DNA from: a virus
Reading direction: 5' to 3' (one strand)
Virus record (IMG/VR): IMGVR_UViG_3300003322_000224
Span: 1-35,773 of that record
DNA: 35,773 nt
A program made the position numbers and the translations under genes. How positions within the stretch are numbered: position 1 is the first letter of the stretch; the number at the start of each line of letters is the position of its first letter. Of this stretch, positions 1 to 23,719 are shown piece after piece. A model generated the notes under the pieces. The model made no database searches. It saw only the letters and a list, made by a program, of their open reading frames with translations, and was not told the origin of the DNA.

Positions 1-138
1 GAACCCGGCACATTCCCGCTGGTTAATGGCGCTCCCTCCCGAGTGGGACGACTGCGCGCCTACGGCAACGCGATCAATCTCGAGCAAGCGGCCGAGTTCA
101 TCGGCGCCGCGCTCGAAGCGATCGAGGTGACGGTATGA
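1..138 (+). CDS. DNA cytosine-5 methyltransferase, C-terminal end (partial)
   Basis: An open frame enters from the left edge and ends at the TGA at 136-138, giving the last 45 residues of a protein. The piece contains [12 protein letters not shown], which matches motif X and the C-terminal end of C5-cytosine DNA methyltransferases, where a GN-A/S-I/V motif closes the SAM pocket. Phage enzymes of this type methylate their own DNA and usually protect it from host restriction. The catalytic PCQ and ENV motifs lie outside the window, so activity cannot be judged. The next gene starts inside its stop codon (ATGA overlap), so both belong to the same early operon. Confidence 0.85.
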
Positions 139-1232
139 CCGACCTTCCGCAACCCCTCACGCCGGCCGACTGCGACCTCCGCGACTTTCCGTACATGCCG
201 CTCGACGTGCTGCGCCTTCGCGATAGCGATCTGGCCGCGCGCACGAGTGGAGAGGAGTTCCGTTGCGCTGTGCTGCTGTGGTGCGCTTCATGGCATCAAG
301 TGCCCGCCGCGTCGCTTCCTGATGACGACGTCAACCTCGCTCAGTACGCCGGATTCGGTCGTGCCATCGATCAGTGGCTGCAGCACAAGGAAGGTGCAAT
401 GCGCGGCTGGGTCAAGTGCTCAGACGGGCGCCTATATCACGCCGTCGTCGCCGAAAAGGCTAATGAAGCGTGGCAGCAAAAGCACGTCAAGGCGCACGAA
501 AAACTGGGCGAGCGTATCCGCAAACGCAACAAAGTGAGGGCGGAAAAAGGCCAATCTCCGTTGGAAATTCCGGATGTGGATAACTGGATTTCCATGGGTC
601 GTCCGGTGGAACGCGATCTTTTTCCGGAGGAATTTGCAGCATCTTCCGCCGGAAATAAGAAGGCTTCCGCCGGAAAAGATATGAGCGGTGTCCGGAACGG
701 TAGCCAAATTCCGCCGGAAAACGCTCTTAAGGGAACAGAACAGAACAGAACGGAACGGAAAGATAAAACCATAGGTTCTAACGACGACGGTGGTACGCCT
801 CCCGCGCGAGACGAAAAATCGCACGCTGCCGCCGTCGAGGTTTCGAAATCGCTGCGCGAATGGGAAAAAGCGCGCGGCAAGTTTCCGCGAAACATCACGC
901 CCAGCCAAGAGCAGGTGATCGAGCTGGCCGCCTTGGAGCCGACGCCCGACGAGCTGCGCAAGGCCTACGAACTGGCCGTCGAGGCACGCGAGAACGCAAG
1001 CGACCCCGGACCGATCAACGCAGCATTCGTGCGCACGAAGCTCGAGCAGCTTCGCCGGCCGCCGCCACCCAAGCGCGAACCGCAACTCTCGCTGCAAGCC
1101 ATGACTGACGCTCAGCGCGACGCGGTTGCTCGCGATCTCGGAATCAGCGGGGCCCGTGCGGGCGAGTCTCGCGATGCGTTCATTGCCCGCATCCAGGCCA
1201 AACGCGCCGAGGCGCAGGGAGCGACAGCATGA
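135..1232 (+). CDS. DUF1376 (YdaU-like) phage replication-region protein
   Basis: A 365-residue protein. The first 110 residues (TPADCDLRDFPYMPLDVLRL, then a WCASWHQVPAASLPDDD-type segment) are the DUF1376 domain found in lambdoid phage replication modules in the place of lambda O or a DnaT/primosome loader. The middle (about 120-220) is charged and low in complexity. The C-terminal half has short helical segments. Nothing catalytic is visible, so a role in origin binding or helicase loading is inferred from position and family. Its own coding sequence carries a phased repeat array (556-719) and an AT-richer purine tract, as the lambda O gene carries the lambda origin. It overlaps the genes before and after by ATGA. 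Confidence 0.85.
   Translation: MTDLPQPLTPADCDLRDFPYMPLDVLRLRDSDLAARTSGEEFRCAVLLWCASWHQVPAASLPDDDVNLAQYAGFGRAIDQWLQHKEGAMRGWVKCSDGRLYHAVVAEKANEAWQQKHVKAHEKLGERIRKRNKVRAEKGQSPLEIPDVDNWISMGRPVERDLFPEEFAASSAGNKKASAGKDMSGVRNGSQIPPENALKGTEQNRTERKDKTIGSNDDGGTPPARDEKSHAAAVEVSKSLREWEKARGKFPRNITPSQEQVIELAALEPTPDELRKAYELAVEARENASDPGPINAAFVRTKLEQLRRPPPPKREPQLSLQAMTDAQRDAVARDLGISGARAGESRDAFIARIQAKRAEAQGATA
556..719 (+). repeat. Iteron array, candidate replication origin
   Basis: Three exact copies of the palindrome TTCCGCCGGAA lie at 644-654, 665-675 and 709-719. Degenerate copies matching TCCGnnGGAA lie at 556-566, 601-611 and 622-632, and a half copy (CCGGAA) ends at 697. Start positions 601, 622, 644, 665, (687) and 709 step by 21-22 bp, two helical turns, so all sites face one side of the helix. 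A 22-bp step is not a multiple of three and the copies fall in different codon phases, so the repeats are kept at DNA level rather than as a protein repeat. The probable binder is the DUF1376 protein encoded here. The origin role is inference. Confidence 0.65.
733..780 (+). repeat. Pentanucleotide purine repeat and AT-richer stretch beside the iterons
   Basis: Six tandem five-base units run from 733 to 762: GAACA three times, GAACG twice, then GAAAG. AT-rich sequence (ATAAAACC...) follows to 780. Over 721-780 only 25 of 60 bases are G or C, clearly below the surrounding sequence. A repetitive, strand-asymmetric, easily melted tract directly next to iterons fits a DNA unwinding element. It is translated as part of the DUF1376 gene. 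Confidence 0.5.
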
Positions 1233-1696
1233 GCGACGCCGGCGAATGGGGCATGTGCGCCGCTCACGGATGCCCGCTGCTGGGCACGCTGGTCGCCTCG
1301 CCCTGGTACTGCTTTTGCCACCACGGCCGACCGAACGGCGCGAATGACGCAATCACCGCTCGCCTTCGCAGCGACGAGCTTTCGGCGATTGTGCAGGCCA
1401 CGCTCGACATTCGGCGATGCGCCAGCTCGTTTCGCGACTACCCCGATGTATATCGATCGCTTCAGCAACGGCTTATCCAAGCCGATCGTCGCGACCTTCT
1501 GCTCGGTGATGCTGACTGCTCGCCTCATCGCCCAGGCAAGCCGATCGTGAAGCAATGGCTCGCCAGGCTCGAGCGCGAACTCATCAAAGCCACGGCCGAC
1601 AGCGGCAGGCAGCAAGGCCTTTCGGGAATCGTGCCGACGGCGCCCGTCATCGGGCCAACGCATGCACTGCAGCACTACTCGGAGCGCGCCGAATGA
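1229..1696 (+). CDS. Hypothetical phage protein, Cys/His-rich N-terminus
   Basis: 155 residues, not recognised as a named family. The N-terminus holds Cys and His residues (CAAHGCP near residue 10, then CFCHHG near residue 28) spaced in a way that could bind one zinc ion. The remainder looks helical and charged. The start codon overlaps the DUF1376 stop (ATGA at 1229-1232), so translation is probably coupled. The position between a replication gene and a winged-helix protein suggests a DNA-metabolism accessory role, which is inference only. Confidence 0.7.
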   Translation: MSDAGEWGMCAAHGCPLLGTLVASPWYCFCHHGRPNGANDAITARLRSDELSAIVQATLDIRRCASSFRDYPDVYRSLQQRLIQADRRDLLLGDADCSPHRPGKPIVKQWLARLERELIKATADSGRQQGLSGIVPTAPVIGPTHALQHYSERAE

Positions 1697-1764
1697 CCGC
1701 CACCACGCGCCTGCGCGCGATTCTTCACCCCCGAAAAGGAGGAAATCATGACAAGCACGAATGA
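1693..1764 (+). CDS. Possible 23-residue leader or coupling peptide
   Basis: A short frame starts with ATG overlapping the previous stop (ATGA at 1693-1696) and ends at 1764. It runs over the strong ribosome binding site AAAGGAGGAAATC of the next gene and stops 17 bases inside it. The peptide (start MTATTRLRAILHPRKGG) has no recognisable domain. It may only keep ribosomes moving across the junction. It may equally be chance. Confidence 0.25.
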   Translation: MTATTRLRAILHPRKGGNHDKHE

Positions 1765-2122
1765 GCCGGGTCCGACGCGGCTTTCGGCAAAACAACGGCA
1801 ACTCACGGACGATCGCGTTTGCGCTCTCCTTGAGGAATCCGGCGTGATGTCGGTTGAGCAACTCGTCGCAAAGACGAAGTTCGCACGCTCTACGGTGAAA
1901 CTGTCGGTCGAGCGATTGCGCAAGGACGGCGTTGTTCGCAAATTGCCCAAGAAGCGAGCCTGCGGAAGACGTGGAATTTTTGCGTGCGTCTACGAGTTGG
2001 GTTGCGAAGAGGACTTGCCGATCAGGCGCGCGCCGGTCAAATTCGCGCCATTCCGACACCCGCAGGATATTGCCTTCTTCGGGCTGCCGAAAACAGCGGT
2101 GCATCAGCGGGAGGCAGCGTGA
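1748..2122 (+). CDS. Winged helix-turn-helix DNA-binding protein
   Basis: 124 residues. Residues about 20-70 form a winged-helix pattern: a helix with DDRVCALLEESG, a second (SVEQLVAKTKFARSTVK) with the recognition segment, then a basic wing (RKLPKKRACGRRG). The C-terminal 45 residues are not recognised. The start is the ATG at 1748, directly behind a near-perfect AAAGGAGGAAATC ribosome binding site. Its stop overlaps the GTG start of the RuvC-like gene. It is probably a phage transcription or replication regulator; the target is unknown. Confidence 0.75.
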   Translation: MTSTNEPGPTRLSAKQRQLTDDRVCALLEESGVMSVEQLVAKTKFARSTVKLSVERLRKDGVVRKLPKKRACGRRGIFACVYELGCEEDLPIRRAPVKFAPFRHPQDIAFFGLPKTAVHQREAA

Positions 2123-2613
2123 GCTTTCTGATCGGGTGCGACCCGGGTTTGACTGGTGCCATCACATCGCTCGACCATCACGGCCACCTGCGGGCGGTCG
2201 TCGACCTGCCGACATGCCCGATCGAGACGGCCGGCCCGCAGTCCAAGATCAAGCGCAAGATCGACGCGCGAGCACTGCGCGCCATCCTGCGAGAACTGGT
2301 GCCGGCCGACGAACGCGCGATGTTCGTCATCGAGGACATGCAGCTGCTCGGCGGCTCGTCGGTGCAGACGATGGGCGCGCTGGCGCATACGCGGGGCGTT
2401 ATCGAGGCCGTGGCGCTGCTGTGTGACCTCGACGTTAGGTTCGTGCGTCCACAGGCGTGGAAGCGCTTCTACGGGCTTGGGAGCGACAAGACGGCGGCGC
2501 TGGCGGCCGCGCGAACGATGTGGTGCGGACACGATGATTTCAAGCGGGCGAAGGATCACAACCGCGCCGAGGCGGCGCTCATCGCGCATTTCGCGCTTAG
2601 GACGATGGCGTGA
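2119..2613 (+). CDS. RuvC-like Holliday junction resolvase
   Basis: 164 residues from a GTG start at 2119 that overlaps the upstream stop (GTGA). The fold signature is RNase H/RuvC: FLIGCDPGLTGA with D8, then FVIEDMQ with E72, then a C-terminal DHNRAEAALIAHFAL segment supplying D146 and E151 as likely metal ligands. Enzymes of this family cut four-way junctions symmetrically. In phages they clear branched replication or recombination intermediates before packaging. The frame stays open upstream to 1984, but that stretch lies inside the winged-helix gene and does not look like this family, so the GTG was chosen. The Sak4-like recombinase in the left arm is a natural partner. Confidence 0.85.
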   Translation: MSFLIGCDPGLTGAITSLDHHGHLRAVVDLPTCPIETAGPQSKIKRKIDARALRAILRELVPADERAMFVIEDMQLLGGSSVQTMGALAHTRGVIEAVALLCDLDVRFVRPQAWKRFYGLGSDKTAALAAARTMWCGHDDFKRAKDHNRAEAALIAHFALRTMA

Positions 2614-2870
2614 TGGCCGCGCAACTCACGCCCGTTCAGTTGGCCGGCATGCTCCCGCGCGACGAGCGCTTCCGCGAGTTCGTAAGCCAGTACATGGTTC
2701 CACCGCGCATGCCCAGCGTCGACGAAGCGGCGCACTTCATCCGCGTCGCGTGCGAGGTCGAGAGCCGTCGGGAGATCGCACAGAGTGCGCGCGCCGCGGC
2801 GGCGTTCCACCGTTTCATCTGCCGGCCGTTCTCGGCTTGGCAGGAAAAGCAGACTCACGTTGAGGTATGA
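2613..2870 (+). CDS. Hypothetical small phage protein
   Basis: 85 residues from the ATG at 2613, which shares one base with the upstream TGA; a GTG one codon earlier (2610) is an alternative start. The protein is largely helical (LTPVQLAGMLPRDERFREFV...) with no motif I recognise. It lies tightly between the RuvC-like gene and the Q-like gene, and the next ATG follows its stop directly. Conserved proteins of this size are common between the resolvase and the late regulator in phages of this group. Confidence 0.7.
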   Translation: MAAQLTPVQLAGMLPRDERFREFVSQYMVPPRMPSVDEAAHFIRVACEVESRREIAQSARAAAAFHRFICRPFSAWQEKQTHVEV

Positions 2871-3293
2871 ATGGATCTGGCGACGCTTGAGCCAAGGCTG
2901 GAAAATTGGGCGCGCGCGCAGTGGTCTAGCGGCTATGAGCCCGGCCGCGCCGCGTCGGCGGAGGGAATGTGGCGTGGCGGAGGCTGGCGCGAACTGCGAG
3001 CCGCGCCTGATCCCATCGACGCTCGCGACGCCGCCCTCGTCAACGCCGCATGGCAGCGCCTGATGCCGCTTGATCGCGACGTGCTGCGTATGCACTACGT
3101 CTGGCGGGCTCGCTCGTCGTTCATCTGCCGCCGGCTCAAGCTCAAGCAAGGGCACGGATACGAGCACGTGTGGGATTTCGCGCTCTACCACGCGCATCAA
3201 GCGATCGCAGCCATGCTTGACAAAATCGATGACCTTGCGAAACCCATACGCTGTGCCTATAATCGCGACCAGATTACCGAATCCGTCGATTGA
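2871..3293 (+). CDS. Probable Q-like late-gene regulator (antiterminator)
   Basis: 140 residues. The core (about 55-120) has MPLDRDVLRMHYVWRARS followed by SFICRRLKLKQ and a WDFALYHAHQAI helix. This is the sigma-region-4-like or helix-turn-helix arrangement of phage proteins usually annotated as antiterminator Q-like. It is the last early gene before the terminase, the position of Q in lambdoid phages. A strong promoter lies inside its 3' end and is followed at once by terminators, exactly where a Q-type factor would act. The Q assignment rests on position and the promoter/terminator layout as much as on sequence. A transcription activator is the main alternative. Confidence 0.6.
   Translation: MDLATLEPRLENWARAQWSSGYEPGRAASAEGMWRGGGWRELRAAPDPIDARDAALVNAAWQRLMPLDRDVLRMHYVWRARSSFICRRLKLKQGHGYEHVWDFALYHAHQAIAAMLDKIDDLAKPIRCAYNRDQITESVD
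3235..3263 (+). promoter_or_regulatory. Late promoter, sigma70 type (pR'-like)
   Basis: TTGCGA at 3235-3240 (4 of 6 to consensus) is followed, after exactly 17 bases, by a perfect TATAAT at 3258-3263. Transcription would start near 3270, inside the last codons of the Q-like gene, and run into two hairpins before the first late gene. No equally good promoter is apparent elsewhere on this strand in the late operon. Confidence 0.7.
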
Positions 3294-3299
3294 CGAGTG

Positions 3300-3324
3300 A
3301 AGCGACCGCAGTAGGGGTCGCTTT
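3300..3324 (+). terminator. Hairpin with short T-run, first part of a tR'-like terminator
   Basis: AGCGACC at 3301-3307 pairs with GGTCGCT at 3316-3322 across an 8-base loop; one more A-T pair extends the stem. It is followed by a few Ts. The T-run is weak, so it may act as a pause or as part of the leader structure rather than as a full terminator. Confidence 0.5.
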
Positions 3325-3339
3325 CGCCCGAAAATCCCG

Positions 3340-3378
3340 AAGCCCGCCTGGCCCTAAGCCTCGCGGGCTTTTGCTTTT
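3340..3378 (+). terminator. Rho-independent terminator in the late leader (tR'-like)
   Basis: AAGCCCGC at 3340-3347 pairs with GCGGGCTT at 3363-3370, followed by a T-rich tail (TTGCTTTT to 3378). It ends 10 bases before the first late start codon. With the promoter at 3235-3263 it would release a leader RNA of about 100 bases unless RNA polymerase is antiterminated. Confidence 0.75.
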
Positions 3379-3388
3379 GGAGCCCAAG

Positions 3389-3655
3389 ATGGCGAAATTG
3401 AGCACCGCGCAGCGCAAATCGATGCCCGCCAAGGAATTTGCCGGCGGCAAGCCCAAGGGCGATGCGACCGGACGATTTCCGCTGAACGACAAAGCGCACG
3501 TCAAGGCGGCCGAGTCGTACGAGCGCTTCGCCACCCCGGCCGAGAAGAAGAAAATCGACGCGGCGGCGTCCAAGGACTTCCCGAAGGGCAAGAAGGCGAG
3601 CTCCGATGGCAAGAAGGTCGGCGCGCGCCTTGCAGGATACAAGTCGGGGTATTGA
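3389..3655 (+). CDS. Small basic phage protein, DUF6582-like
   Basis: 88 residues from the ATG at 3389, behind a GGAG site. The protein is lysine-rich (MAKLSTAQRKSMPAKEFAGG, then RFPLNDKAHVKAAESY). The F-P-x-x-D-x-x-H-x-x-A-A pattern resembles the DUF6582 group found next to terminases and in phage capsid genes. Function is unknown. The frame is open further upstream, but that would run through the leader terminators. It is the first gene of the late operon. Confidence 0.7.
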   Translation: MAKLSTAQRKSMPAKEFAGGKPKGDATGRFPLNDKAHVKAAESYERFATPAEKKKIDAAASKDFPKGKKASSDGKKVGARLAGYKSGY

Positions 3656-3658
3656 GCA

Positions 3659-4048
3659 ATGGGTGCGCCTTCTACGTTTTCTCAAGCCTTGTTCGACCGG
3701 ATCTGCGAGCAAATGGCCGAGGGAAAGAGCTTGCGCGCGATTTGCAAGGCGAAGGACATGCCGAACCGGCGCACTGTGAGCGACTGGCTCGCGAAGGACG
3801 AAAAGCTGGCCAAGCAATATGCCGCAGCCATTGAGGCGCGCGCGGAGCACTACTTCGACGAGATCATCGATATTGCCGACAGCAAATCGGATCCGCAGAA
3901 GACCCGCGTTCAGATCGACGCCCGCAAATGGGTGCTCGCGCGCATGAATCCGAAGAAGTATGGCGACAAGTTCACGCAGGAACTCACGGGTGCCGAGGGT
4001 GGGCCGCTCGTCGTCAAGATCGTGCGGCATGGGGATGAGGATGCCTGA
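3659..4048 (+). CDS. Terminase small subunit
   Basis: 129 residues. The N-terminal part (about 10-50: FSQALFDRICEQMAEGKSLR, then NRRTVSDWLAKD) is a helix-turn-helix of the type used by small terminase subunits to recognise the packaging site. A helical oligomerisation segment follows (HYFDEIIDIAD), then the typical RVQIDARKWVLARMNPKKYG stretch. It works with the large subunit to start DNA packaging. The large-subunit gene overlaps its 3' end by 8 bases. Confidence 0.85.
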   Translation: MGAPSTFSQALFDRICEQMAEGKSLRAICKAKDMPNRRTVSDWLAKDEKLAKQYAAAIEARAEHYFDEIIDIADSKSDPQKTRVQIDARKWVLARMNPKKYGDKFTQELTGAEGGPLVVKIVRHGDEDA

Positions 4049-5480
4049 GATAGTCCTCCCGGCCCACGGCTGGAAGCCTCGCAAGCATCAGCGCAAGGCA
4101 TGGACGTATCTGGAGAACGGCGGACGCTACCTCTATCAAATCGCGCATCGGCGCTGGGGCAAGGACGATATTGCGCTGCGCTGGACGAGCGTCGCGGCGT
4201 TCGAGCGCGTCGGCGCCTACTGGCATCTGCTGCCGGAAGCGGCGCACGCGCGCAAGGCGATCTGGACGGCTGTGAACCCGCACACGGGCATGCGTCGTAT
4301 CGACGAAGCATTCCCGCATGCGCTGCGAAAGACCACGCGCGAGCAGGAAATGTTCATCGAATTTCTGAACGGCTCGACATGGCAGGTGGGGGGGAGCGAT
4401 CGATACAACACGCTCGTGGGCTCATCTCCGGCGGGCGTGGTTTTCTCCGAATGGGCGCTCGCCAATCCAGCGGCGTGGGCCTATGTGCGCCCGATCCTGC
4501 TGGAAAACGGCGGATGGTCGGCGTTCATCACGACGCCTCGGGGGCATAACCATGCAGAGCGCATGCTCAAGGCCGCACGCAACATGCCGGGCGCGTTTGC
4601 CGATGTGTCGCCGGCCACCGAGACGGGCATCTTCTCGCCCGAAGCGCTCGAACAGGAGCGCCTGTCGCTGATCGCCGAATACGGCCCGGAGTTCGGGCAG
4701 TCGATCTTCGACCAGGAGTACATGTGCAGCTTCGACGCGGCCGTGCTGGGCGCCTATTACACGGCATGGATTGTCCAGGTACGGGCCGAGAAGCGCATCC
4801 AAGAGGTCAAGGTCGATGCTGCACTGCCAGTGCATTTCGCCTTCGACATTGGGCGCACGGACGATACGAGCATTTGGCCGTTCCAAGTTCCATGGAAAGC
4901 GCTCCACGTGAACGGATTCCATTCGAGTAACGGCAAGGACGTGGGCTTCTATCTCGAATGGCTGTGGGCCTTCCTGCAGGAGCGCGGCGCGAAGCTCGGC
5001 AAGCTCTATCTCCCGCACGACGCCAAGGCCAAGACGCTCGCGAGCATGGGCAAGAGCGTAATGGAGCAATTCATCGAGGGCGTCGAGAAGGATGGACACA
5101 AGATTCCGGGCGTCGGCTGGGGGCACGTCGAGATCGTGCCGAATTTGAGCGTACAGGACGGCATCCAGGCGGTCCGCACGATGTTTCCGCGCGTCTACTT
5201 CGACAAGTCGTGCGACACGGACGATTCGGCCGGCTTCACCGGCATCGAGGCGCTGTCGCAATACAAGCGCGAGTACGACGCGGACCACAAGGTCTTTCGC
5301 GAAAAGCCGCTGCACGACTGGTGCTCGAACCCTGCGGATGCATTCCGCATGCTCGCGGTCGCCTATCAGGCCGAAAAAGCCGCAGCGCCCCCTCCGCCCC
5401 CTCCGAAATACCCCCTCGATCTCTCGATTGACCAACTCATCGCCCGCCAGCGCGCCAAGCGCATAGCCGAGGAAGCCTGA
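4041..5480 (+). CDS. Terminase large subunit
   Basis: 479 residues. The packaging ATPase has a deviant Walker A (RRWGKDD, residues 37-43), a Walker B with catalytic Glu (VVFSE, 133-137) and the coupling motif TTPRG (164-168). The C-terminal RNase H-like nuclease shows the acidic residues D269 (AFDIGRTDD), D327 (LPHDAK) and D426/D433 (LHDWCSNPADAF). Together they translocate DNA into the prohead and cut it. In-frame ATGs at 4029 and 4035 are alternative starts; 4041 was chosen as the most conserved-looking. A proline run near residue 450 leads to a short helical tail. The WGKD-type Walker A is typical of podovirus-like and GTA-like terminases. Confidence 0.93.
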   Translation: MPEIVLPAHGWKPRKHQRKAWTYLENGGRYLYQIAHRRWGKDDIALRWTSVAAFERVGAYWHLLPEAAHARKAIWTAVNPHTGMRRIDEAFPHALRKTTREQEMFIEFLNGSTWQVGGSDRYNTLVGSSPAGVVFSEWALANPAAWAYVRPILLENGGWSAFITTPRGHNHAERMLKAARNMPGAFADVSPATETGIFSPEALEQERLSLIAEYGPEFGQSIFDQEYMCSFDAAVLGAYYTAWIVQVRAEKRIQEVKVDAALPVHFAFDIGRTDDTSIWPFQVPWKALHVNGFHSSNGKDVGFYLEWLWAFLQERGAKLGKLYLPHDAKAKTLASMGKSVMEQFIEGVEKDGHKIPGVGWGHVEIVPNLSVQDGIQAVRTMFPRVYFDKSCDTDDSAGFTGIEALSQYKREYDADHKVFREKPLHDWCSNPADAFRMLAVAYQAEKAAAPPPPPPKYPLDLSIDQLIARQRAKRIAEEA

Positions 5481-5481
5481 C

Positions 5482-5718
5482 ATGCAAACAGGACCGTTTT
5501 CGACCTACGATACCGCCGCGGCCGTGACGCCGAGCGACACGACGGCGGTCACTTTCCGCGCGCTTTGGGTGGGCGGCGCCGGCAATGTAGCCGTCGTCAC
5601 CGAGGGGGGCAATAGCGTGACATTCACGGCTGTCCCCGCTGGCACCCTGCTCCCGGTCGCCGTGCAAACCGTCAAGTCAACGGGCACGACGGCCACGAAC
5701 ATGGTGGGGCTCGCGTAA
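5482..5718 (+). CDS. Spike-base-like small beta protein (RCAP_Rcc01079-type)
   Basis: 78 residues, beta-rich. The pattern TPSDTTAVTFRALWVGGAGN followed by VTFTAVPAGTLLPVAVQTV and TTATNMVGL matches small proteins annotated as spike base protein of the gene transfer agent type. It would form a trimeric beta base on a capsid or tail spike. It lies between terminase and portal, an odd place for a spike component. The family call is from memory of the pattern. Confidence 0.6.
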   Translation: MQTGPFSTYDTAAAVTPSDTTAVTFRALWVGGAGNVAVVTEGGNSVTFTAVPAGTLLPVAVQTVKSTGTTATNMVGLA

Positions 5719-7977
5719 ATGGCGGATATTGCCGATTCGACGGCCGTAACTGCCGTCGATACGCCGGCCGATTTCGGCAAGGGCGCGGAGGGCGAATACC
5801 GGCGCTGGGCGGTCGAGATTTCGCTCGCCAAGACACGCATGAAGGACTGGCGCGAGAACGCCAAGAAGCTGTGGGACGTGTACCACGGAACGAGCGTGAG
5901 CCGGAAAAGGAACAGCTACAACGCGCTCTACGCCAACACTGAGATCCTCGCGCCGTCGGTCTACAACTCCATGCCCACCCCCGATGTGCGCCGGCGCTTT
6001 GCCCAGGGTGATCCGCTCGGTAAGGCCGTCTCGGAAGTGCTCAATCGCGCGCTGCTGTTCAACGCGGAGACGACCGGATTCGAGGCAGAGATCAAAGACG
6101 ATGTGCTCGACATGCTGATCGTCGGCATGGGCTTCTCGCGCGTGCGCTATGTTCCCGATCTCGTCGAGGTGGGCGATGCCAAGCATATCGGCAGCGAAGA
6201 GGCGGAAACGAACCTTGTGCATGAGGCGCAGCAGGGCGAAGAGAACGAGGAACTCGCCTGGGAGACGGCGCCCATCGAGCATGTGAAATGGGACAAATAC
6301 CTACGCGGGCCTGGTCGCACCTTCAAGGAAATCCCCTGGTGGGCCTTTGAGCACGACCTGACGCGCGATGAATTGATCCGCCGTTTCGGCGAGGAAATCG
6401 GAAGCGCGATTGAGCTCTCTGGCGGCCCGGCAAATGTCGATACCGATATTCAGCGCATCGCCGACGACGACACCATGGCGCTCTTCAAGACGGCCAAGGT
6501 ATGGGAGATTTGGGACAAGGAGACGCGCCAGGTCTATTGGCTGGCTGAGGGCTTCAAGTCGCGCTTATGCAAGACCGAGAAAGACCCGCTCAAGCTCGAT
6601 CAGTTCTTCCCGCTGCCTGACCCGCTGCGCGCCATCGAGGATTCGGATACGTTCGAGCCGACGGCGCTCTACGATCAATACAGGGAGCAGGCCGAGGAAC
6701 TCGACCGCATCTCAACGCGCATCAATAAGCTCGTCGATGCGCTCAAGGCACGCGCCATCTATGATCCGTCGCTCGGAACGATGGTCGCTGAACTGTTCCG
6801 CGGACAGGACAACGACCTGATCGCGGCCGATCAGGCAATCAAGGCACTCTACGAGAACGGAGGCCTCGCCAATTCGATCTGGTTCGCGCCGATCGAGCAA
6901 ATCGCCAAGGTCATCGCCGGTCTATACGAGCAGCGCGAGCAGTGCAAGCAGGTGATTTACGAGCTGACGGGCATCGCGGACATCATGCGGGGCTCGACGG
7001 ATGCGCAGGAGACGAAGGGCGCCCAGGATTTGAAGGTCGCATTCGGCATGACGCGGCTTTCGCGCATGCAGCGCTCGGTTCAGCGGTATATCCGCGATCT
7101 GCTGTGCCTGCAGGCCGAGGTAATCTGCAACCGCTTTGCCCTCGACACGCTACAGCAGATGACGCAATTGCCGCTTCAGAGCGAGGCGCAAGTGCTCGCA
7201 TCGCCGACGCATCAGCAATGGATGCAGCTCGCGGTTGCTGCCGTTCAGCAAGGACAAACGCCTCCGCCGCGCCCTCCGAAGCCCGTCACGTGGGAGGACG
7301 TGCATCGCGCCATGCAAAACGACGCGCAGCGCGCTTTCCGCGTCGATATTGAGACCGATTCGACAATCGCGGCAGCCCAGCAGGAGGACGCACAAGACCT
7401 CGCCACGGTGATGACGGCTATCGTCGAGATGGTGAGGGAAGTCGGACCGATGGTGCAGATGGGCGTCATGCCATTCCCGGCGTTCAAGGAGTTGCTGCTC
7501 ATGACGGCCCGCAAGTTCCGCATGGGAACCGCCGTCGAGGACGCGATCGACCAGATGCAACCGCCGCAGCAGGGTCAGCCGCCGGTGCAGGTTCAAGTCG
7601 AGCAGATGCGCCAGCAAGGCAAGCAGCAGGAAATCGCGGCGAATACGCAGGCCGAGCAGCAGAAGGCTCAGATTCAGGCGTGGCTCGCGATGATGGAGCA
7701 GCGCGCGCAGGCGGCCCAGGCGCAGCAGGAGAACACGCTCGAAGCGCAGCGCGCGGCGATGCAGGCTCACTACGACGCTCAAGTGGAAGCGCTCAAGGCT
7801 CAGCAAGCCGCCTCCGTCGAAGCGATCAAGACCCAGATCAACGGTCAATTGCAGATCATCTTGCAGGCCATGAAGAACCAGAGCGCAATCGAGGTAGCGG
7901 AAATCACGACCGGCGCGCAGCTTGAGGCGGCGCAGATCAGCGCGGCGCAGGCCGGCAGCGAGAAAGGAGGCGAATGA
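5719..7977 (+). CDS. Portal protein
   Basis: 752 residues, long for a portal. The core (about 20-560) has the expected order: RRWAVEISLAKTRMKDWREN, NALYANTEILAPSVYNSMPT, a clip/stem helix region with TAKVWEIWDKETRQVYWLAE, and the segment VIYELTGIADIMRGSTDAQE. From about 610 to the end the protein is Gln/Ala-rich coiled coil, like the barrel extension of P22-type portals. It forms the dodecameric ring through which DNA enters and leaves. Its position after the terminase confirms the call. It is followed by the zinc-ribbon gene with a one-base overlap. Confidence 0.9.
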   Translation: MADIADSTAVTAVDTPADFGKGAEGEYRRWAVEISLAKTRMKDWRENAKKLWDVYHGTSVSRKRNSYNALYANTEILAPSVYNSMPTPDVRRRFAQGDPLGKAVSEVLNRALLFNAETTGFEAEIKDDVLDMLIVGMGFSRVRYVPDLVEVGDAKHIGSEEAETNLVHEAQQGEENEELAWETAPIEHVKWDKYLRGPGRTFKEIPWWAFEHDLTRDELIRRFGEEIGSAIELSGGPANVDTDIQRIADDDTMALFKTAKVWEIWDKETRQVYWLAEGFKSRLCKTEKDPLKLDQFFPLPDPLRAIEDSDTFEPTALYDQYREQAEELDRISTRINKLVDALKARAIYDPSLGTMVAELFRGQDNDLIAADQAIKALYENGGLANSIWFAPIEQIAKVIAGLYEQREQCKQVIYELTGIADIMRGSTDAQETKGAQDLKVAFGMTRLSRMQRSVQRYIRDLLCLQAEVICNRFALDTLQQMTQLPLQSEAQVLASPTHQQWMQLAVAAVQQGQTPPPRPPKPVTWEDVHRAMQNDAQRAFRVDIETDSTIAAAQQEDAQDLATVMTAIVEMVREVGPMVQMGVMPFPAFKELLLMTARKFRMGTAVEDAIDQMQPPQQGQPPVQVQVEQMRQQGKQQEIAANTQAEQQKAQIQAWLAMMEQRAQAAQAQQENTLEAQRAAMQAHYDAQVEALKAQQAASVEAIKTQINGQLQIILQAMKNQSAIEVAEITTGAQLEAAQISAAQAGSEKGGE

Positions 7978-8378
7978 TGCCACTCTATTCGTTCAAGTGC
8001 CCGAACTGCGGCACGGTCGAGCGCGTTTTCCGCAAGGTGGATGATCGCAACGACGCGCCGCTGTGCGTGAAATGCACGGCCCTCGAAACCTGCCGCAATC
8101 CTATGCAGCGCATCATCGAAGCGCCGGCCGTGCAGGCTGATTTGCCTGGCTACACCTCTCCGATCGATGGCCGCTGGATCGAAGGGCGACGCGCGCGAGC
8201 CGAAGACCTCAAGCGCAACGGTTGCCGGCCGTGGGAAGGCATGGAGGCCGAGAAGAAGGAAGCGGAGCGTCGCGCGAACGAGATCGACCATACGCACGAG
8301 CGCGCCGTCGAGGCGGCCGTGGCCGATGTGTACAACGGCATGAGCGCCGAATCGCAGCGAGCGCTGCAACAGCTATGA
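7977..8378 (+). CDS. FmdB-like zinc ribbon protein
   Basis: 133 residues. The N-terminus MPLYSFKCPNCGTVERVF with a second Cys pair (CVKCTALETC) is an FmdB/CxxC-type zinc ribbon. The rest (about 60-133) is charged helix. The ATG at 7977 has an AAGGAGG six bases upstream; the ATG three bases earlier is too close to it. Zinc-ribbon proteins of this sort often sit between portal and scaffold in podovirus-like genomes. Their job is not known to me. A terminator follows the gene. Confidence 0.75.
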   Translation: MPLYSFKCPNCGTVERVFRKVDDRNDAPLCVKCTALETCRNPMQRIIEAPAVQADLPGYTSPIDGRWIEGRRARAEDLKRNGCRPWEGMEAEKKEAERRANEIDHTHERAVEAAVADVYNGMSAESQRALQQL

Positions 8379-8400
8379 AGCCGAGCCAAAAACAACAGAC

Positions 8401-8423
8401 AGCCGCCTTGAGCGGCTTTTTTT
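8401..8423 (+). terminator. Rho-independent terminator before the scaffold gene
   Basis: AGCCGC at 8401-8406 pairs with GCGGCT at 8412-8417 across a 5-base loop and runs into seven Ts (8417-8423). It lies inside the late operon, with no obvious promoter between it and the scaffold start at 8442, so late transcripts must read through it. Confidence 0.8.
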
Positions 8424-8441
8424 ACGCCCAAGGAGCTTGAA

Positions 8442-9527
8442 ATGACGGATACATCAGCCGCGCCGACGCAGAAAGAGCCGACGATCGACGAAACGCTATT
8501 GAGCACATGGAACGCGATTCAATCGCGCGGCAAGGAGGGCGACTTCACGCCGGAGGGCGGTGATGGTGACATCCAAGTCGCCTCGGGCGCCGAAGAAGAG
8601 CACGAGGACGCCGCCACGCAGATCGCTAACGAATCGAGCGACGGACAGGATGGCTCGATCGACGAAAGCAATGAAGCGGCCGGGGAAAGCGAGCAGCAAC
8701 AGGCCGAGGCGCAGACGTTCCGGCCGCCGTGGAAGAAGGCTGCGCTTGCCGAGTGGGAGAAGTTGCCCGAGCTTGCGCGCAAGGAGATCGAGCGCCGCGA
8801 GGCCGACTTTCACAAGGGCATCGAGCAATACAAGGCCGGCGCGCAGCAGTCGCAGGAGTGGGAGCGCACGGTGCAGCCCTACATGGCGACGATCCAGAGC
8901 TTCGGTGTTACGCCGCAGGTCGCCGTGAATGAGCTTTTGAAGGCCGATCATATGCTGCGCTATAGCCCGCCGCAGCAGAAGATCGGCTTCCTGCTGAAGA
9001 TCGCAGGCGATTACGGCGTCGATCTCCAAACCCTGGCGAACGGCATTCAACAGGTCGCCGGCGAGCAGGTATGGCAACAGCAGAACCCGATGGATCCGCG
9101 CACGCAACAACTGCAGCAGCGCGTCAATCAGTTGGAACAGCACATTCAGCAGTCGCAGCATCAAAACGTCGCTCGGGAAAACTCATCGATCGACGCGGAG
9201 ATTGCTGCCTTTGCCTCGGACCCTGACCACGAGCATTTCGGGGTTCTTCAGCAAGACATGGCCCTGCTTTTGCAGGCCGGTCGCGCGAAGACCCTCGAGG
9301 ATGCTTATGACATGGCGATGCGGCAGAACCCGCAGACGTACCAGGTTTGGCTTGCTCAACAGCAGCAGAAGTGGGACGACGAGCGGAAAGCGAAGGTCCG
9401 TACGGCCAGGCAGGCCGGCGCGAATGTGGTCCGCCCTAACGGGCGCGCAAGCGTGCCGACGGCTCAGCCGCCTCGGACGATGGAAGAGGACATTGAGGCC
9501 AAAGCTCGCGAGCTCGGCCTTATCTGA
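8442..9527 (+). CDS. Capsid scaffolding protein
   Basis: 361 residues. It is acidic and low in complexity at the N-terminus (residues 1-90), with RPPWKKAALAEWEKLPELAR at about 93-112, a helical middle, and a long Gln-rich coiled coil (about 205-245). The C-terminus is basic (AKVRTARQAGANVVRPNGR), followed by a short terminal helix, as scaffold proteins use to bind coat subunits. It lies immediately before the major capsid gene. No protease motif is visible, so removal would be by exit from the shell as in P22. Its start is preceded by AAGGAGC. Confidence 0.8.
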   Translation: MTDTSAAPTQKEPTIDETLLSTWNAIQSRGKEGDFTPEGGDGDIQVASGAEEEHEDAATQIANESSDGQDGSIDESNEAAGESEQQQAEAQTFRPPWKKAALAEWEKLPELARKEIERREADFHKGIEQYKAGAQQSQEWERTVQPYMATIQSFGVTPQVAVNELLKADHMLRYSPPQQKIGFLLKIAGDYGVDLQTLANGIQQVAGEQVWQQQNPMDPRTQQLQQRVNQLEQHIQQSQHQNVARENSSIDAEIAAFASDPDHEHFGVLQQDMALLLQAGRAKTLEDAYDMAMRQNPQTYQVWLAQQQQKWDDERKAKVRTARQAGANVVRPNGRASVPTAQPPRTMEEDIEAKARELGLI

Positions 9528-9547
9528 ACTGACATAAGGAGTCGATC

Positions 9548-10534
9548 ATGGCATCTCCCGGTCAGTCGAGCCTGTTCAACGCTTTCACCGAACTGGTATC
9601 GACCACCTATCGCAATCACAAGAAGACGGTCTCCGACAACGTGTCGCACCATAACGCTCTCTATCGGCGCATCGCGTCGAAGGGCCGCGTGCGGCTCGAA
9701 GACGGCGGCCTGTCGATCGTCTGTCCGCTGGACTATCAAGCGAATTCGACCTTTCAGCGCTACAGCGGCTACGATGTGCTGAACATCAACGCCGTGGACG
9801 TGCTGACGGCGGCCGAATATCCGTGGCGCCAAGCCGCGGTGAACGTGGCCGCCTCGGGTCTCGAACTTCGCACGAACTCGGGCGCGCAACGCATCATCAA
9901 CTTCGTCAAGGCCAAAATCACGAACGCGCAGCGCTCGTTCGCGAACGGCATGTCGAGCGACGTGTATTCGGACGGCACCGCAGCAAACCAGATCAACGGT
10001 TTGCAGGCGATCGTCGCCGATAGCGGCGTGGGCACGGTCGGTGGCATCAACGCTTCGACGTGGGCTTTCTGGCAAAACATCGTCCAATCGGCGGCCGCTC
10101 CGATTCAGGGCGGCGGCGCCATCACGCCGAGCGCGACGACGATCGAGTCGCTCATGCTCCCGCTGTGGATCAAGCTGACCCGCGGCACCGATACGCCGGA
10201 TTTGATTGTCATGTCGGACGACTACTTCACGATGTACGAGCAATCGCAAACGTCGCTGAAGCGCTATGCCCCGGAAGATCGCGGGCAGGGCGGCATGATT
10301 TCCATGAAGTACAAGACGGCCGACGTGTTCTTCGATTCGTCGGGCGGCATTCCTGCGCAGCACGCCTATTTCTTGAACACCGAGTTCATGGAAATGGTCG
10401 TGCATCGCGATGCGAACATGGACATGCCGGAAGAGTTGCGCAGCGTGAACCAGGATGCCGTCGTCATGCCGATTCTGTGGCAAGGCAACTTGGTTTGCTC
10501 GGCGCGCTTCCTGCAAGGCGTGATGAAGGCTTAA
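9548..10534 (+). CDS. Major capsid protein
   Basis: 328 residues. The pattern KKTVSDNVSHHNALYRRI, STFQRYSGYDVLNINAVDVL, AAEYPWRQAAVNVAASGLEL and GINASTWAFWQNI is that of a well-known phage coat family with an HK97-like fold. The C-terminal part has a DMPEELRSVNQDAVVMPILW strand region. It is the shell subunit. It has a good TAAGGAG site, follows the scaffold by 20 bases, and is followed by the decoration-type gene. No delta domain or cleavage site is evident at the N-terminus, which fits a separate scaffold. Confidence 0.92.
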   Translation: MASPGQSSLFNAFTELVSTTYRNHKKTVSDNVSHHNALYRRIASKGRVRLEDGGLSIVCPLDYQANSTFQRYSGYDVLNINAVDVLTAAEYPWRQAAVNVAASGLELRTNSGAQRIINFVKAKITNAQRSFANGMSSDVYSDGTAANQINGLQAIVADSGVGTVGGINASTWAFWQNIVQSAAAPIQGGGAITPSATTIESLMLPLWIKLTRGTDTPDLIVMSDDYFTMYEQSQTSLKRYAPEDRGQGGMISMKYKTADVFFDSSGGIPAQHAYFLNTEFMEMVVHRDANMDMPEELRSVNQDAVVMPILWQGNLVCSARFLQGVMKA

Positions 10535-10550
10535 CCGAACGGAGGATGAA

Positions 10551-11294
10551 ATGACGGTAGCAGCAACGCAGTTCCCTCTGATCGGTTCGCAGCCGATCGG
10601 AAATTTCTTTGCCCCCGATACGACTCAGCGCCAGCCGCTCGGGTCGATCGTGGCGGCGGACGATCCGTTTTGGGGTGGCGGGGAGTTCATCTACCTCAAG
10701 GCCAATGCAACGCTTAACCAGGGCGCCGCTGTCACGTGGAATGCCGCAGTGGGCTTCCTCGCGATCAACCTGCCCAATACGGCCAATCAGGGCTGTGCGG
10801 TGGCATGGGCGATTTACCCGATGACGAGCGGACAATACGGCTGGTTCAAGTTGTCGGGCCAGGTCGTGGCGAATTGTACGGCGTCAGTCGCAGCCGGGAC
10901 GACGGTCGGCATCACTGCCGCCGGTCAACTCGGGGCCAACAGCGCCGGCAAGCAGATTCTCGGAGCGACCTCCGTGCAAGCTGCAACGGCCACGATCACG
11001 AAGGCCAATACGCAGACCCAAAACGGCTCGCCGCGCCTTCGCGTGTCGAATACCGATGGGCTGTTCGTCGGCTTGGCGATCTCGGGCACGGGTATCCCTG
11101 CCTCGACCTATATCGGCCAGATCAGCCCGGACGGCGCCGGCGCGATCCTCACGATGACGCAATCGGACCTCGCCACGGCGCAAAACGCCACGGCGACGGG
11201 ATCGATCACGCTCACCGGCACGATGAATGACGGCACGACGTACTACAACGTGCTGTACTCGGATCGCGCATTCGCACAGGGCGCAATTACGTAA
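10551..11294 (+). CDS. Head decoration-like protein
   Basis: 247 residues, beta-rich and low in charge. The first 130 residues (GSIVAADDPFWGGGEFIYLK, TSGQYGWFKLSGQVVANCTA) resemble proteins that follow the coat gene in this phage group and are annotated as head decoration or hypothetical. Residues 150-245 form a repeated beta region with GLFVGLAISGTGIPASTYIG, like Ig-type or bacterial adhesion repeats. It probably sits on the capsid surface. It has a GGAGG site and ends 30 bases before a terminator. Position is the main support. Confidence 0.65.
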   Translation: MTVAATQFPLIGSQPIGNFFAPDTTQRQPLGSIVAADDPFWGGGEFIYLKANATLNQGAAVTWNAAVGFLAINLPNTANQGCAVAWAIYPMTSGQYGWFKLSGQVVANCTASVAAGTTVGITAAGQLGANSAGKQILGATSVQAATATITKANTQTQNGSPRLRVSNTDGLFVGLAISGTGIPASTYIGQISPDGAGAILTMTQSDLATAQNATATGSITLTGTMNDGTTYYNVLYSDRAFAQGAIT

Positions 11295-11323
11295 TTCCCT
11301 GCTGTCTCCTTGGGGAATCTTTT

Positions 11324-11354
11324 GCGGCGCATCTTCGGGTGCGCCGCGCTTTTT
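11324..11354 (+). terminator. Rho-independent terminator after the capsid cassette
   Basis: GCGGCGCA at 11324-11331 pairs perfectly with TGCGCCGC at 11340-11347 across an 8-base loop containing TTCG. Five Ts follow (11350-11354). It lies just before the next start codon at 11367. Confidence 0.8.
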
Positions 11355-11366
11355 GGAGGATACGAA

Positions 11367-11705
11367 ATGCCGGACGATAACGCTCCGAGCAGCACCGAAC
11401 CGATTCGAGTCGAGGTGGCCGACCCAAACGTTGCCTTGGCTGCGGCCGAAAGCGCAACAGGCCAGGACTCTGCGGGCGCTGCCGCTGGCGCCGATACGTC
11501 GTCGCTCAAAAGCGAAAGTTCAAGCGCCGCTGGTGAGCCGGCCGAGCTCACGTTCGAGCAGCTTGTCGAGCAGCGCTTCGTGAAGCTCGAAGCGGCGCTC
11601 ATGGGATTGCCATCGGCCATTCACCAGGCTCTCTCGGAAGGGAGCCACAGCACACACGAGTCGTTCTGTGCTCGCGTGCTGCAACACCTATTCAAAGCGC
11701 TGTAA
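11367..11705 (+). CDS. Hypothetical acidic phage protein
   Basis: 112 residues from the ATG at 11367, behind GGAGG. The first 55 residues are disordered and Ala/Ser/Asp-rich. The rest is helical (ELTFEQLVEQRFVKLEAALM, then VLQHLFKAL). No family is recognised. An upstream in-frame start would lie before the terminator and was rejected. The position between the capsid cassette and a coiled-coil protein suggests a head or head-tail accessory role. Confidence 0.6.
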   Translation: MPDDNAPSSTEPIRVEVADPNVALAAAESATGQDSAGAAAGADTSSLKSESSSAAGEPAELTFEQLVEQRFVKLEAALMGLPSAIHQALSEGSHSTHESFCARVLQHLFKAL

Positions 11706-11725
11706 CCGCCCAAGGAGAAATGGCA

Positions 11726-12370
11726 ATGCAAGAACCGAGATTGCAGGAGAAGGGCTCGCGCCCGCATGTGCGCTTCGAGACGCGGCCCGTCGAGGATCGC
11801 GAGCAGTCGATCGCCCAGGGCCACAAGGTCTACAAAGACGTGCATTGGGTCGTGGTGACGCCGGCCGGCGGCAAGGACGTACGCGAGGATCACGCCGAGG
11901 CGTGGCTCGACAAAATCGAAGCACAAGCGCAACTCGGCCAGTACGACTACGAGTGGGCCAAGGACTTCCGCAAGATGTTCGCGATGTACAAGGACGGCTT
12001 GGAGATGCCGGTGCACGGCACGCCGCTTCGCATGTGCACGACGCTTTTCACGCCGGCCGAGATTGCCAACTGCGCCGCGGTGAATGTGCTCTCGCTCGAG
12101 GAACTGGCCGGCGCGAACGAGGAAACGCTCGGACGCATCGGCATGGGCGCGCGGGCGCTCAAAACGCGCGCTCAAGAGGCCATTAAGACGGGCGAGGGCA
12201 AAGAGAGCGCAATGAAGGTCGAGGCGCTCACGATCGAGAACTCTCAGCTCAAGCAGAAGGTAGACGACTTGATCGGCGTCGTGAATGAGCTCAAAGAGCA
12301 GATGGCGACGATGGTTCCCGTCGAGAAGCGCGGTCCCGGTCGGCCGCCGAAACAGCAGGAGGCTGCGTAA
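11726..12370 (+). CDS. Hypothetical head-region protein with coiled coil and AT-hook-like tail
   Basis: 214 residues from the second ATG (11726), which is better spaced behind AAGGAG than the one at 11720. Residues 1-150 are globular: YKDVHWVVVTPAGGKDVRED, then LFTPAEIANCAAVNVLSLEE. Residues about 160-200 form a heptad-type coiled coil (ALTIENSQLKQKVDDLIGVV). The last dozen include KRGPGRPPK, the core of an AT-hook, a minor-groove DNA-binding motif. A virion protein that touches DNA is one reading; chance is another. The function is not known to me. Confidence 0.65.
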   Translation: MQEPRLQEKGSRPHVRFETRPVEDREQSIAQGHKVYKDVHWVVVTPAGGKDVREDHAEAWLDKIEAQAQLGQYDYEWAKDFRKMFAMYKDGLEMPVHGTPLRMCTTLFTPAEIANCAAVNVLSLEELAGANEETLGRIGMGARALKTRAQEAIKTGEGKESAMKVEALTIENSQLKQKVDDLIGVVNELKEQMATMVPVEKRGPGRPPKQQEAA

Positions 12371-12372
12371 TC

Positions 12373-12726
12373 ATGCAGAAGTACCAGAACAATGTCCTTT
12401 TGAGCCCAGGCGGCATAGCGGTTCCGAACGCCAGCGTTCTGGTGCTCAATTACCCGGACGGCACTACCGCGACGATCTATTCCGATAACGGCGTCACGCC
12501 GGCCGCCAATCCGCTGACGACTGATGCGAATGGTGCGTTCGGCTTCTATGCTGCCGACGGGCACTATTCGCTGCAGATCACCGGAAACGTAGGCGGTATT
12601 GCGATTACGCCCGTCACTGTGCCGGATGTGCTGCTCGTCGATGTTCTTCCGGCCGACCTTCCTACGACGCTGCCAGCAGCATCCGGCAAGCTCTGGAATA
12701 ACGGTCAAGTTATCTCGGTGTCCTGA
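12373..12726 (+). CDS. Tail fibre-type anchor protein
   Basis: 117 residues, beta-rich. The pattern NASVLVLNYPDGTTATIYSD, PLTTDANGAFGFYAADGHYS is the transthyretin/carboxypeptidase-regulatory-like fold seen at the N-terminus of many phage tail fibres. Here it ends early and is followed two bases later by a second fibre-like gene. The pair may be a split fibre: anchor first, receptor-binding part second. It is led by AGGAGG. Confidence 0.65.
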   Translation: MQKYQNNVLLSPGGIAVPNASVLVLNYPDGTTATIYSDNGVTPAANPLTTDANGAFGFYAADGHYSLQITGNVGGIAITPVTVPDVLLVDVLPADLPTTLPAASGKLWNNGQVISVS

Positions 12727-12727
12727 C

Positions 12728-13834
12728 ATGCTCAAGAAACTGAAACTAGGGCTCGTAGCGCTGCTACTGCCCGCGCTGGCGCTCGCGCAAACCTACCCGT
12801 CGCCGACGTTCAATAATGTCACGGTGCAGGGCACGTTAGCCGTCACCGGCGCACCGACGTTCACGGCGCCGGTTCCCATTTCATCGGGCGGCACGGGACA
12901 GACGACGGCTTCCGCTGCGGCGCACGCGCTCGGGCTTGGCGCGGCCGATTCGCCGACGTTCACAGGGCTGACGCTATCTACGACGCCGTTATCGGTTGCA
13001 TCCGGCGGCACGGGCGGCGCGACGCAGGCGCAATACCAGCCGTTAGCCGGCAGTGGCACCGGCGCGATTACGACGCTCGGCACCGGGACGGCTGGGCAGG
13101 TGCTTACGTCTAACGGCAATGCCGCGTATCCCTCATTCCAAAACGTCTCGGCTCTGGCTGGGCGCCTGATAGGCATCCAGACATTTTGCCCGTCTGGCTG
13201 CACGGCCACGGGCGGCACTTATACGCCGACCTCTGGAACGAATAGCGTCATCGTCGAGGTGCAGGCGGCAGGCGGTGGATCTGGAGGTGCGGCGGCGACT
13301 TCCAGTAGTCAACTTTCGGCCTCGCCGGGCGGCGGTGCGGGGGCGTATGCCAAGGTTCGATTCACTTCCGGTTTTTCCGGCGCAACGATTACGATTGGGG
13401 CGGCAGGGGCGGCGGGAACCGCCGGCGGCGCTGGCGGAAATGCTTCTGCTACAAGTTTCGGTTCTCTCATATCGTGCCCGGGTGGAATTGGTTCGGGTGC
13501 TGGCGGGGTTATCGCCAATACGAGTAGCGGCGGGATCACATTGGGCGCCGCCGCGACGGCGGCTCCGACCATCAGCGGCGGTACGGTCCTAACTGCGAAG
13601 TATGGCGGCGGGACTACGGTGTCCTTCGCGCTCGGTGGGCAGCCATTTGGCTCATCTGGTTCGGATAGCACTTTGGGGGTCGGTGGGCGCTTACAGGGAA
13701 GCTCTGCGCAAGCCGCAAATGCCGGATCGGGATATGGATCGGGGCCGTCGGGAGCGGCAAATATCGCGTCTCAATCCGCTTCCGTAGGGCAGGCGGGGCA
13801 GCCCGGTATCGTGATCGTCTACGAGTACAACTGA
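12728..13834 (+). CDS. Glycine-rich tail fibre/receptor-binding protein with signal peptide
   Basis: 368 residues. Residues 1-21 look like a classical signal peptide: MLKKLKLG, a Leu/Ala core, and an ALALAQ cleavage region. Fibre repeats follow (ISSGGTGQTTASAAAHALG, ASGGTGGATQ), then a glycine-rich domain from about 225 (GGGSGG, SPGGGAGAYAKVRF) ending in PGIVIVYEYN. That ending is typical of polyglycine-sandwich receptor-binding domains of phage tail adhesins. The upstream extension of the frame lies inside the previous gene and was rejected. A secretion signal on a cytoplasmically assembled fibre is odd; it may be a membrane anchor, or a leftover from a secreted protein. Confidence 0.75.
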   Translation: MLKKLKLGLVALLLPALALAQTYPSPTFNNVTVQGTLAVTGAPTFTAPVPISSGGTGQTTASAAAHALGLGAADSPTFTGLTLSTTPLSVASGGTGGATQAQYQPLAGSGTGAITTLGTGTAGQVLTSNGNAAYPSFQNVSALAGRLIGIQTFCPSGCTATGGTYTPTSGTNSVIVEVQAAGGGSGGAAATSSSQLSASPGGGAGAYAKVRFTSGFSGATITIGAAGAAGTAGGAGGNASATSFGSLISCPGGIGSGAGGVIANTSSGGITLGAAATAAPTISGGTVLTAKYGGGTTVSFALGGQPFGSSGSDSTLGVGGRLQGSSAQAANAGSGYGSGPSGAANIASQSASVGQAGQPGIVIVYEYN

Positions 13835-13836
13835 CC

Positions 13837-14574
13837 ATGCCTATCGTCACACAGCCGGTAACCGGCAGCGTTTCATGCCTGTCGATAGTCCAAGATCTGA
13901 CGCAGCGGATGAATATCCCGACGCCCTCGGCAGTGGCGACTTCGACCGATCCGGCGATTCTCCAAATTCTCGCGCTCTGCAATAAAGAGGGCGAATGGGT
14001 GACGAACCAATACGATTGGCAATCGCTTTGCCTCGAAGCCAACTTCGTGACCGTCGCCCAGGAAAGCCAAGGCTCGCTTTCGACGATTGCGCCGTACATG
14101 AAAAACATCATCAACGACACGATGTGGAACCGCGATTTGCGGCGCCCCGTGTTCGGGCCGATGACGCCGCAACGATGGGAGCAGCTCAAGGCAATGGTTA
14201 TGCAAGGACCCTGGAATCAATTTCAGATCCGCGGTGACAACATCCTGTTCATTCCGGTCCCGGCGGCCGGACAAAACATCTGGTTTCAGTACACGACGCG
14301 GGCATGGTGCAAGTCAGTTGGTGGCATGGGGCAAGTCAAATTCCTTGCAGATGACGATACGCTCACGCTGCGCGATGATCTCTTCAAGCTCGGCGTCGAG
14401 TGGCGCTGGCGCAAGGCCAAGGGCCTCGACTACGCGCAGGATTTCGTCGATTACGAGACCATGCTGCAGGATGCGAAAGCGCGCGACGGCACGAAAGACA
14501 CGATCAACATGGGCGATGTGAAGTACGACATTTACCCAGGAATCATGGTCCCGGCTGGGAGCTGGTCGGCATGA
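13837..14574 (+). CDS. Head-tail adaptor / tail tubular protein A-like
   Basis: 245 residues. The pattern includes NKEGEWVTNQYDWQSL, IINDTMWNRDLRRPVFGPMT and the C-terminal LTLRDDLFKLGVEWRWRKAK. It matches the adaptor/tail-tube A proteins of podovirus-like phages, which join the portal to the tail hub. It directly precedes, with ATGA overlap, a protein resembling tail tubular protein B, the usual partner. Function is from family and position. Confidence 0.75.
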   Translation: MPIVTQPVTGSVSCLSIVQDLTQRMNIPTPSAVATSTDPAILQILALCNKEGEWVTNQYDWQSLCLEANFVTVAQESQGSLSTIAPYMKNIINDTMWNRDLRRPVFGPMTPQRWEQLKAMVMQGPWNQFQIRGDNILFIPVPAAGQNIWFQYTTRAWCKSVGGMGQVKFLADDDTLTLRDDLFKLGVEWRWRKAKGLDYAQDFVDYETMLQDAKARDGTKDTINMGDVKYDIYPGIMVPAGSWSA

Positions 14575-17510: not shown

Positions 17511-17519
17511 GGAATAATC

Positions 17520-22325: not shown

Positions 22326-22399
22326 CGCGTGATAGATGGCAATCGATCCGAAAGGACCAAACGCAATGATTGCATTCTGCAGATTCATGGAGGTATCCA

Positions 22400-23709: not shown

Positions 23710-23719
23710 CGGGGTTCTA

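Follow-up and report, generated by a model that had tools for sequence, protein, structure and literature searches.

The DNA analyzed here (the window, i.e., the whole stretch of 35,773 nt) carries on its plus strand a gene at 2871-3293 that encodes a 140-aa protein of PHROG 19609, a family of unknown function. This Q-like protein has an N-terminal helix followed by a sigma-region-4-like helix-turn-helix. A putative late promoter of the pR' type (3235-3263, plus strand; -35 TTGCGA, 17-nt spacer, -10 TATAAT) lies inside the 3' end of the gene, within the final 60 bases of the open reading frame (ORF), and agrees with the consensus at 10 of 12 positions. Transcription is predicted to start at ~3270 and to end at a tR'-like intrinsic terminator (3340-3378, plus strand), which consists of a hairpin at 3340-3370 (AAGCCCGC/GCGGGCTT) and a T-run at 3369-3378. 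The terminated RNA would be ~105 nt long, in agreement with the leader of about 100 bases that an earlier, sequence-only reading of this DNA had anticipated. The T-run ends 10 bases before the ATG at 3389 of the first late gene (3389-3655, plus strand; 88 aa, phrog_16160, unknown function, with GGAG upstream). The next gene (3659-4048, plus strand) encodes the phrog_1482 small terminase, which bears out the earlier view that late genes lie downstream. As in a pR'-tR' region, an intrinsic terminator is located between the promoter and the first late gene, and the Q-like gene is found immediately upstream of the late promoter, both in the window and in its relatives.

The sequence-only reading also described two hairpins ending 10 bases before the late gene and regarded them as the terminator. 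These two hairpins (3297-3327 and 3340-3370, with the T-run to 3378) are present, but a third one at 3284-3295 had been missed, and only the last of them, together with its T-run, is terminator-like. The hairpin at 3297-3327 lacks a T-run and looks like a conserved RNA element instead. Hairpin A (3284-3295, plus strand; CGUC-GAUU-GACG, 4 bp) overlaps the stop codon of the Q-like gene and sits just 5' of hairpin B (3297-3327, plus strand), a bulged stem with the upper stem GCGACC/GGUCGC.

The Q-like identity of the 2871-3293 product, which had been a guess, is now backed by fold evidence and by weak sequence bridges. A Pfam search with the window protein gave no match, and since the protein failed the sequence test for PF06530 (the Q21 family) at the curated cut-off, we kept it outside that family. 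Among 34 relatives, one matched PF06530, weakly (E 0.004). The relative L046 matched phrog_79, "anti-termination protein Q-like" (E 3.7e-4), and the relative L073 matched phrog_248, "transcriptional activator" (E 4e-5). Searching the PDB by sequence with the family profile returned chance matches only, and an hhalign comparison of the profile with just QuuD, a member of the Q21 family from E. coli, gave nothing and was uninformative. The E. coli Q21-family loci retrieved for comparison were all identical to each other; in E. coli DLP12, the region 3' of quuD holds nmpC with IS5.

An AlphaFold2 model of the window protein, built with 34 relatives as input (mean pLDDT 74), has a confident core, with low confidence at residues 20-39 and 123-140. 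Foldseek placed Q21 among the PDB matches, but with weak E-values (0.08). In a second structural alignment against the PDB, Q21 entries occupied ranks 1-7 (Z 8.9-10.8, 99-128 residues aligned), followed by sigma region 4 domains at Z ~8 and below. Middling Z values of this kind are common; here, the top rows belong to one family and cover most of the length, and the gene stands in the place of Q. The match spans residues 1-131 and thus takes in both the N-terminal helix and the helix-turn-helix. The model displays all parts of the Q21 fold (N-terminal helix, sigma-4-like helix-turn-helix, and long C-terminal helix), so that a Q21-like fold is predicted for the window protein, with a function that is probably that of Q. 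The earlier statement that the family has seen little experimental work is true of PHROG 19609, whereas Q21, to which it seems structurally related, has been studied extensively (PMC7171158, PMC9371919). The family profile found matches in 59 of the 398 genomes sampled from the host family (Burkholderiaceae), and a class-wide search for phrog_19609 revealed nothing beyond the genome already known.

The promoter consensus is weak evidence by itself because shuffles of positions 1-8000 yield on average 1.4 promoter-like matches; in the actual sequence of that region, the site at 3235-3263 is the only one. The pattern TTGCGA-17-TATAAT with at most one mismatch occurs once in 35.8 kb (0.09 expected). 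The real support for this putative promoter, which the sequence-only reading had called near-ideal, is its conservation, as ~40 relatives have a promoter in the same position. In addition, the initial transcribed region contains CAGATT (3270-3275, plus strand), a -10-like hexamer and candidate sigma-dependent pause element. A -10-like sequence is required for the sigma-dependent pause (PMC9371919), and the window combines a sigma-70 promoter with such a sequence, so a pause is predicted here. CAGATT begins 6 nt past the -10, exactly the offset of AACGAT at lambda pR' (TAAATT-TGACTC-AACGAT in lambda versus TATAAT-CGCGAC-CAGATT in the window, with one further C counted into the hexamer).

IMG/VR searches with the Q-like protein and its alignment uncovered 43 loci. 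Nearly all of them have a promoter with a 17-nt spacer at or just past the gene end and, after it, an initial transcribed sequence similar to that of the window, the hairpin pair, and a terminator; this module lies directly behind the Q-like gene in phages of groups A, B, and C. A pattern scan of IMG/VR for the -10 and the initial transcribed sequence (TATAMT-N5-9-AGATTACYGAWTCCG) retrieved 17 contigs. All 16 interpretable exact matches adjoin a PHROG 19609 gene, with the Q-like gene directly upstream, and the matches include a divergent group near Burkholderia phage Magia. The named phages that have a Q-like gene of this type are KS9 (gp47), BgVeeders33, and Magia.

In total, 77 homologous elements were gathered, 51 of which are distinct. 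The spacer measures 17 nt in 49 of the 51, a count partly favored by the small bonus that the scoring gives to 17. A terminator-like site occurs at most 220 bases past the -10 in 50 of the 51 distinct elements, compared with ~13% of shuffles. A hexamer with A2 and T6 is found 4-8 nt past the -10 in 39 of the 51 (24% when shuffled) and is missing from 12, with the reservation that hexamers may be misassigned at a few far loci whose promoters match poorly (L079, L086, L090, L092, and L094). The -35 of the distinct elements is mostly TTGYRA rather than TTGACA, and no bipartite site was defined on the promoter DNA. Promoter and leader are intact in two relatives with altered gene ends: the Q-like gene stops short of the promoter in L028 (gene 3001-3378), and its C-terminal frame is changed in L010 (gene 275-694). 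The persistence of the element in both argues that DNA or RNA is conserved here rather than the protein end. With the pattern used and in the stretch examined, no recognizable element was detected near the Q-like gene of the far relatives L046, L072, L073, L080, L085, L088, and L091. In another relative, L011, from 1708 onward and shortly past hairpin B, other sequence stands where the terminator and first late gene usually lie.

Folding of the leader gives a structure more stable than those of its shuffles (z -3.78). In the minimum-energy fold of the window leader, a competing pairing takes the place of hairpin A, and formation of hairpin A there would therefore depend on co-transcriptional folding. 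We assessed covariation in 23 leaders of group A, aligned with plain MAFFT. The pairs of hairpins A and B form in 92.6% of the alignment cells, which, in sequences as related as these, are not independent events. At six pairs, changes occurred on both sides. The covariation score was 0.264, versus 0.138 when shuffled and at most 0.086 with the partner slid, although the pair columns were picked by eye from the same 23 sequences, which biases the comparison with the slid versions in favor of structure. In the wider groups, the stem of hairpin A is CGTC/GACG, CAGC/GCTG, CGGC/GCCG, CGAA/TTCG, CGGT/ACCG, or CGGTC/GACCG, with varying loops. Wobble pairs, read on the transcript strand, comprise 26 G.U cells versus 5 A.C cells, an excess that favors a function as RNA over one as DNA. 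Hairpins A and B, judged by these compensatory changes, look like conserved RNA structures. Two other readings of the hairpins were rejected: that of a DNA-binding palindrome, because the stems vary with pairing kept and the wobble follows the transcript strand, and that of tandem terminators, because hairpin B lacks a T-run. Model R1, which was built on group A, detects the elements of groups B and C and of L074 only weakly, and hairpin B therefore contributes less to the definition of the wider family than do the promoter, the initial transcribed sequence, and hairpin A.

An Rfam search of the leader found no family at gathering score. The best sub-threshold match was RF02424, a Burkholderia sRNA candidate (3301-3373, minus strand; 21.8 bits versus 70), and it probably stems from the hairpins reading alike on both strands. 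A survey of open-access papers found no description of the leader RNA or of its use at virB operons.

The module also occurs in Burkholderiaceae genomes, where the promoter, initial transcribed sequence, hairpin A, terminator, and Q-like gene precede type IV secretion genes. In a large group among the profile-matching genomes (L075-L095), the Q-like gene lies behind an AlpA-family gene (PF05930) and is followed, mostly, by TTG-17-TANAGT, AACAAYCTGATCCGGTC, hairpin A, and a terminator. Six loci were extended, and a search of each showed a VirB4 gene to follow; VirB3, VirB6, and a lytic transglycosylase also turned up where they were tested for. An AlpA-family gene, a Q-like gene, and the promoter/leader/terminator module ahead of virB genes were seen in L075-L095 and also in L096-L103; in L099, for example, the AlpA-family and Q-like genes and the promoter module are at 2404-2914 and 2966, and virB4 is at 5099-7576. 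Searching a plasmid collection with one type IV secretion leader gave no match. On the basis of these genome sequences, the module is not phage-only, and the element seems to be a portable control switch.

Two further terminator-like sites are located within the late operon of the window, both of them strong and on its coding strand. One (8401-8424, plus strand; stem 8401-8417 and a T-run) lies between ORFs that end at 8378 and start at 8442, and the other (11323-11354, plus strand) has a stem of 11 pairs at 11323-11348 followed by CTTTTT. Over the whole window, terminator-like sites are near the expected number. A plus-strand promoter scan of 5700-25600 found none, which, together with the internal terminators, fits a need for processive antitermination.

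Antitermination of the pR'-tR' type (Q-type) is the best explanation of this region, and we consider it highly probable. The anatomy, its conservation, the RNA covariation, and the predicted fold were observed, and from them we infer the start site, pausing, loading, and readthrough. Sigma-70 RNA polymerase would start constitutively near 3270, and CAGATT in the initial transcribed region would hold sigma and pause the enzyme. In the absence of the Q-like protein, the polymerase would proceed through the ~105-nt leader with hairpins A and B and stop at 3340-3378. The 2871-3293 protein, made from the early operon, would bind promoter DNA and, in the manner of Q21, load at the RNA exit channel of the paused enzyme. 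Polymerase modified in this way would then pass the terminator at 3340-3378 as well as those at ~8.4 and 11.3 kb. The most likely role of hairpins A and B is in the termination/antitermination geometry of the leader.

The window shares with phage 21 Q/pR'21 (PF06530) the order Q, promoter, leader, terminator, and late genes, the -10-like sequence in the initial transcribed region, and the predicted fold over residues 1-131; it differs in that its protein has no significant PF06530 sequence match, its leader has two conserved hairpins, and systems of the window type were found in Burkholderiaceae and their phages. Lambda Q/pR'-tR' likewise has a 17-nt spacer and a terminator ahead of the late genes, whereas its Q protein belongs to another family and its leader is longer (~194 nt). 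In Pseudomonas phage YA3 (PMC7326022), a pR'-tR' region was also predicted from sequence, with a Q homologue, a promoter behind it, and a terminator before the late genes; there, unlike in the window, Q is assigned directly to Phage_antitermQ, and the passages considered here report no leader structure. The Pseudomonas aeruginosa protein AlpA is a DNA-bound factor whose target promoter has a -10-like element for pausing together with an intrinsic terminator (PMC7969949, PMC9371919), a combination that we propose from sequence for the window, and in the type IV secretion loci the Q-like gene has an AlpA-family gene as its neighbor. However, no AlpA-family gene was seen beside the window element, and the fold predicted for the window protein is that of Q21, not AlpA.

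A role of the RNA itself is a possibility that we hold only tentatively. The hairpins would modify polymerase, as HK022 put does, or be bound together with the Q-like protein, making the RNA a functional component of the antitermination complex. HK022 put RNA, ~70 nt of nascent leader, has two adjacent stem-loops and a nearby -10-like sequence, for which a sigma-dependent pause has been suggested (PMC9378689). The window leader resembles it in having two back-to-back hairpins near its 5' end, and their compensatory changes, the G.U excess, and the same layout across divergent proteins and operons all speak for such a role. However, put sits at early promoters and needs no dedicated protein, whereas the window element belongs to a late promoter and adjoins a Q-like gene wherever this could be checked; moreover, Q21 antitermination has been described without an RNA element, and the leader has no Rfam match. 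Either role of the hairpins, put-like or Q-plus-RNA, is compatible with Q-type antitermination rather than exclusive of it.

It is unlikely that the Q-like protein is instead a sigma-region-4-like activator or repressor of initiation at the non-canonical -35 (TTGYRA), with the terminator only trimming basal transcription. The prevalence of that -35, the rank of sigma region 4 domains as the next best structural matches, and the phrog_248 match of L073 agree with such a regulator, but the near-consensus -10 suggests a constitutive promoter, the intrinsic terminator recurs in all but one of the distinct elements, and the Q21 match takes in the N-terminal helix besides the region-4-like part. We consider it quite improbable that the leader is mainly a stable small RNA that acts in trans and whose structure is conserved for that purpose: the terminated product is indeed structured and conserved, but its loops and upper stems vary, no conserved single-stranded seed was seen past the initial transcribed region, and its position before different operons argues for a role in cis. 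That the hairpins arose by chance in GC-rich sequence and that the promoter match is likewise accidental is scarcely credible, given that spacing, pairing, and order are conserved in 51 distinct elements, even if one promoter match in 8 kb is what shuffles yield and terminator-like sites are about as frequent as expected.

Q-type antitermination thus gives PHROG 19609 a likely function and a target site. It also brings a covarying leader RNA into Q-type control, where Q21 is described as acting without an RNA element. We speculate, with considerable reserve, that hairpins A and B serve as a functional RNA component in a new antitermination complex of the Q-plus-RNA kind, in a module common to the late genes of Burkholderiaceae phages and to type IV secretion operons, where it would be coupled to an AlpA-family protein. 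The presence of the module ahead of virB genes suggests that type IV secretion operons of Burkholderiaceae may be switched by phage-type antitermination.
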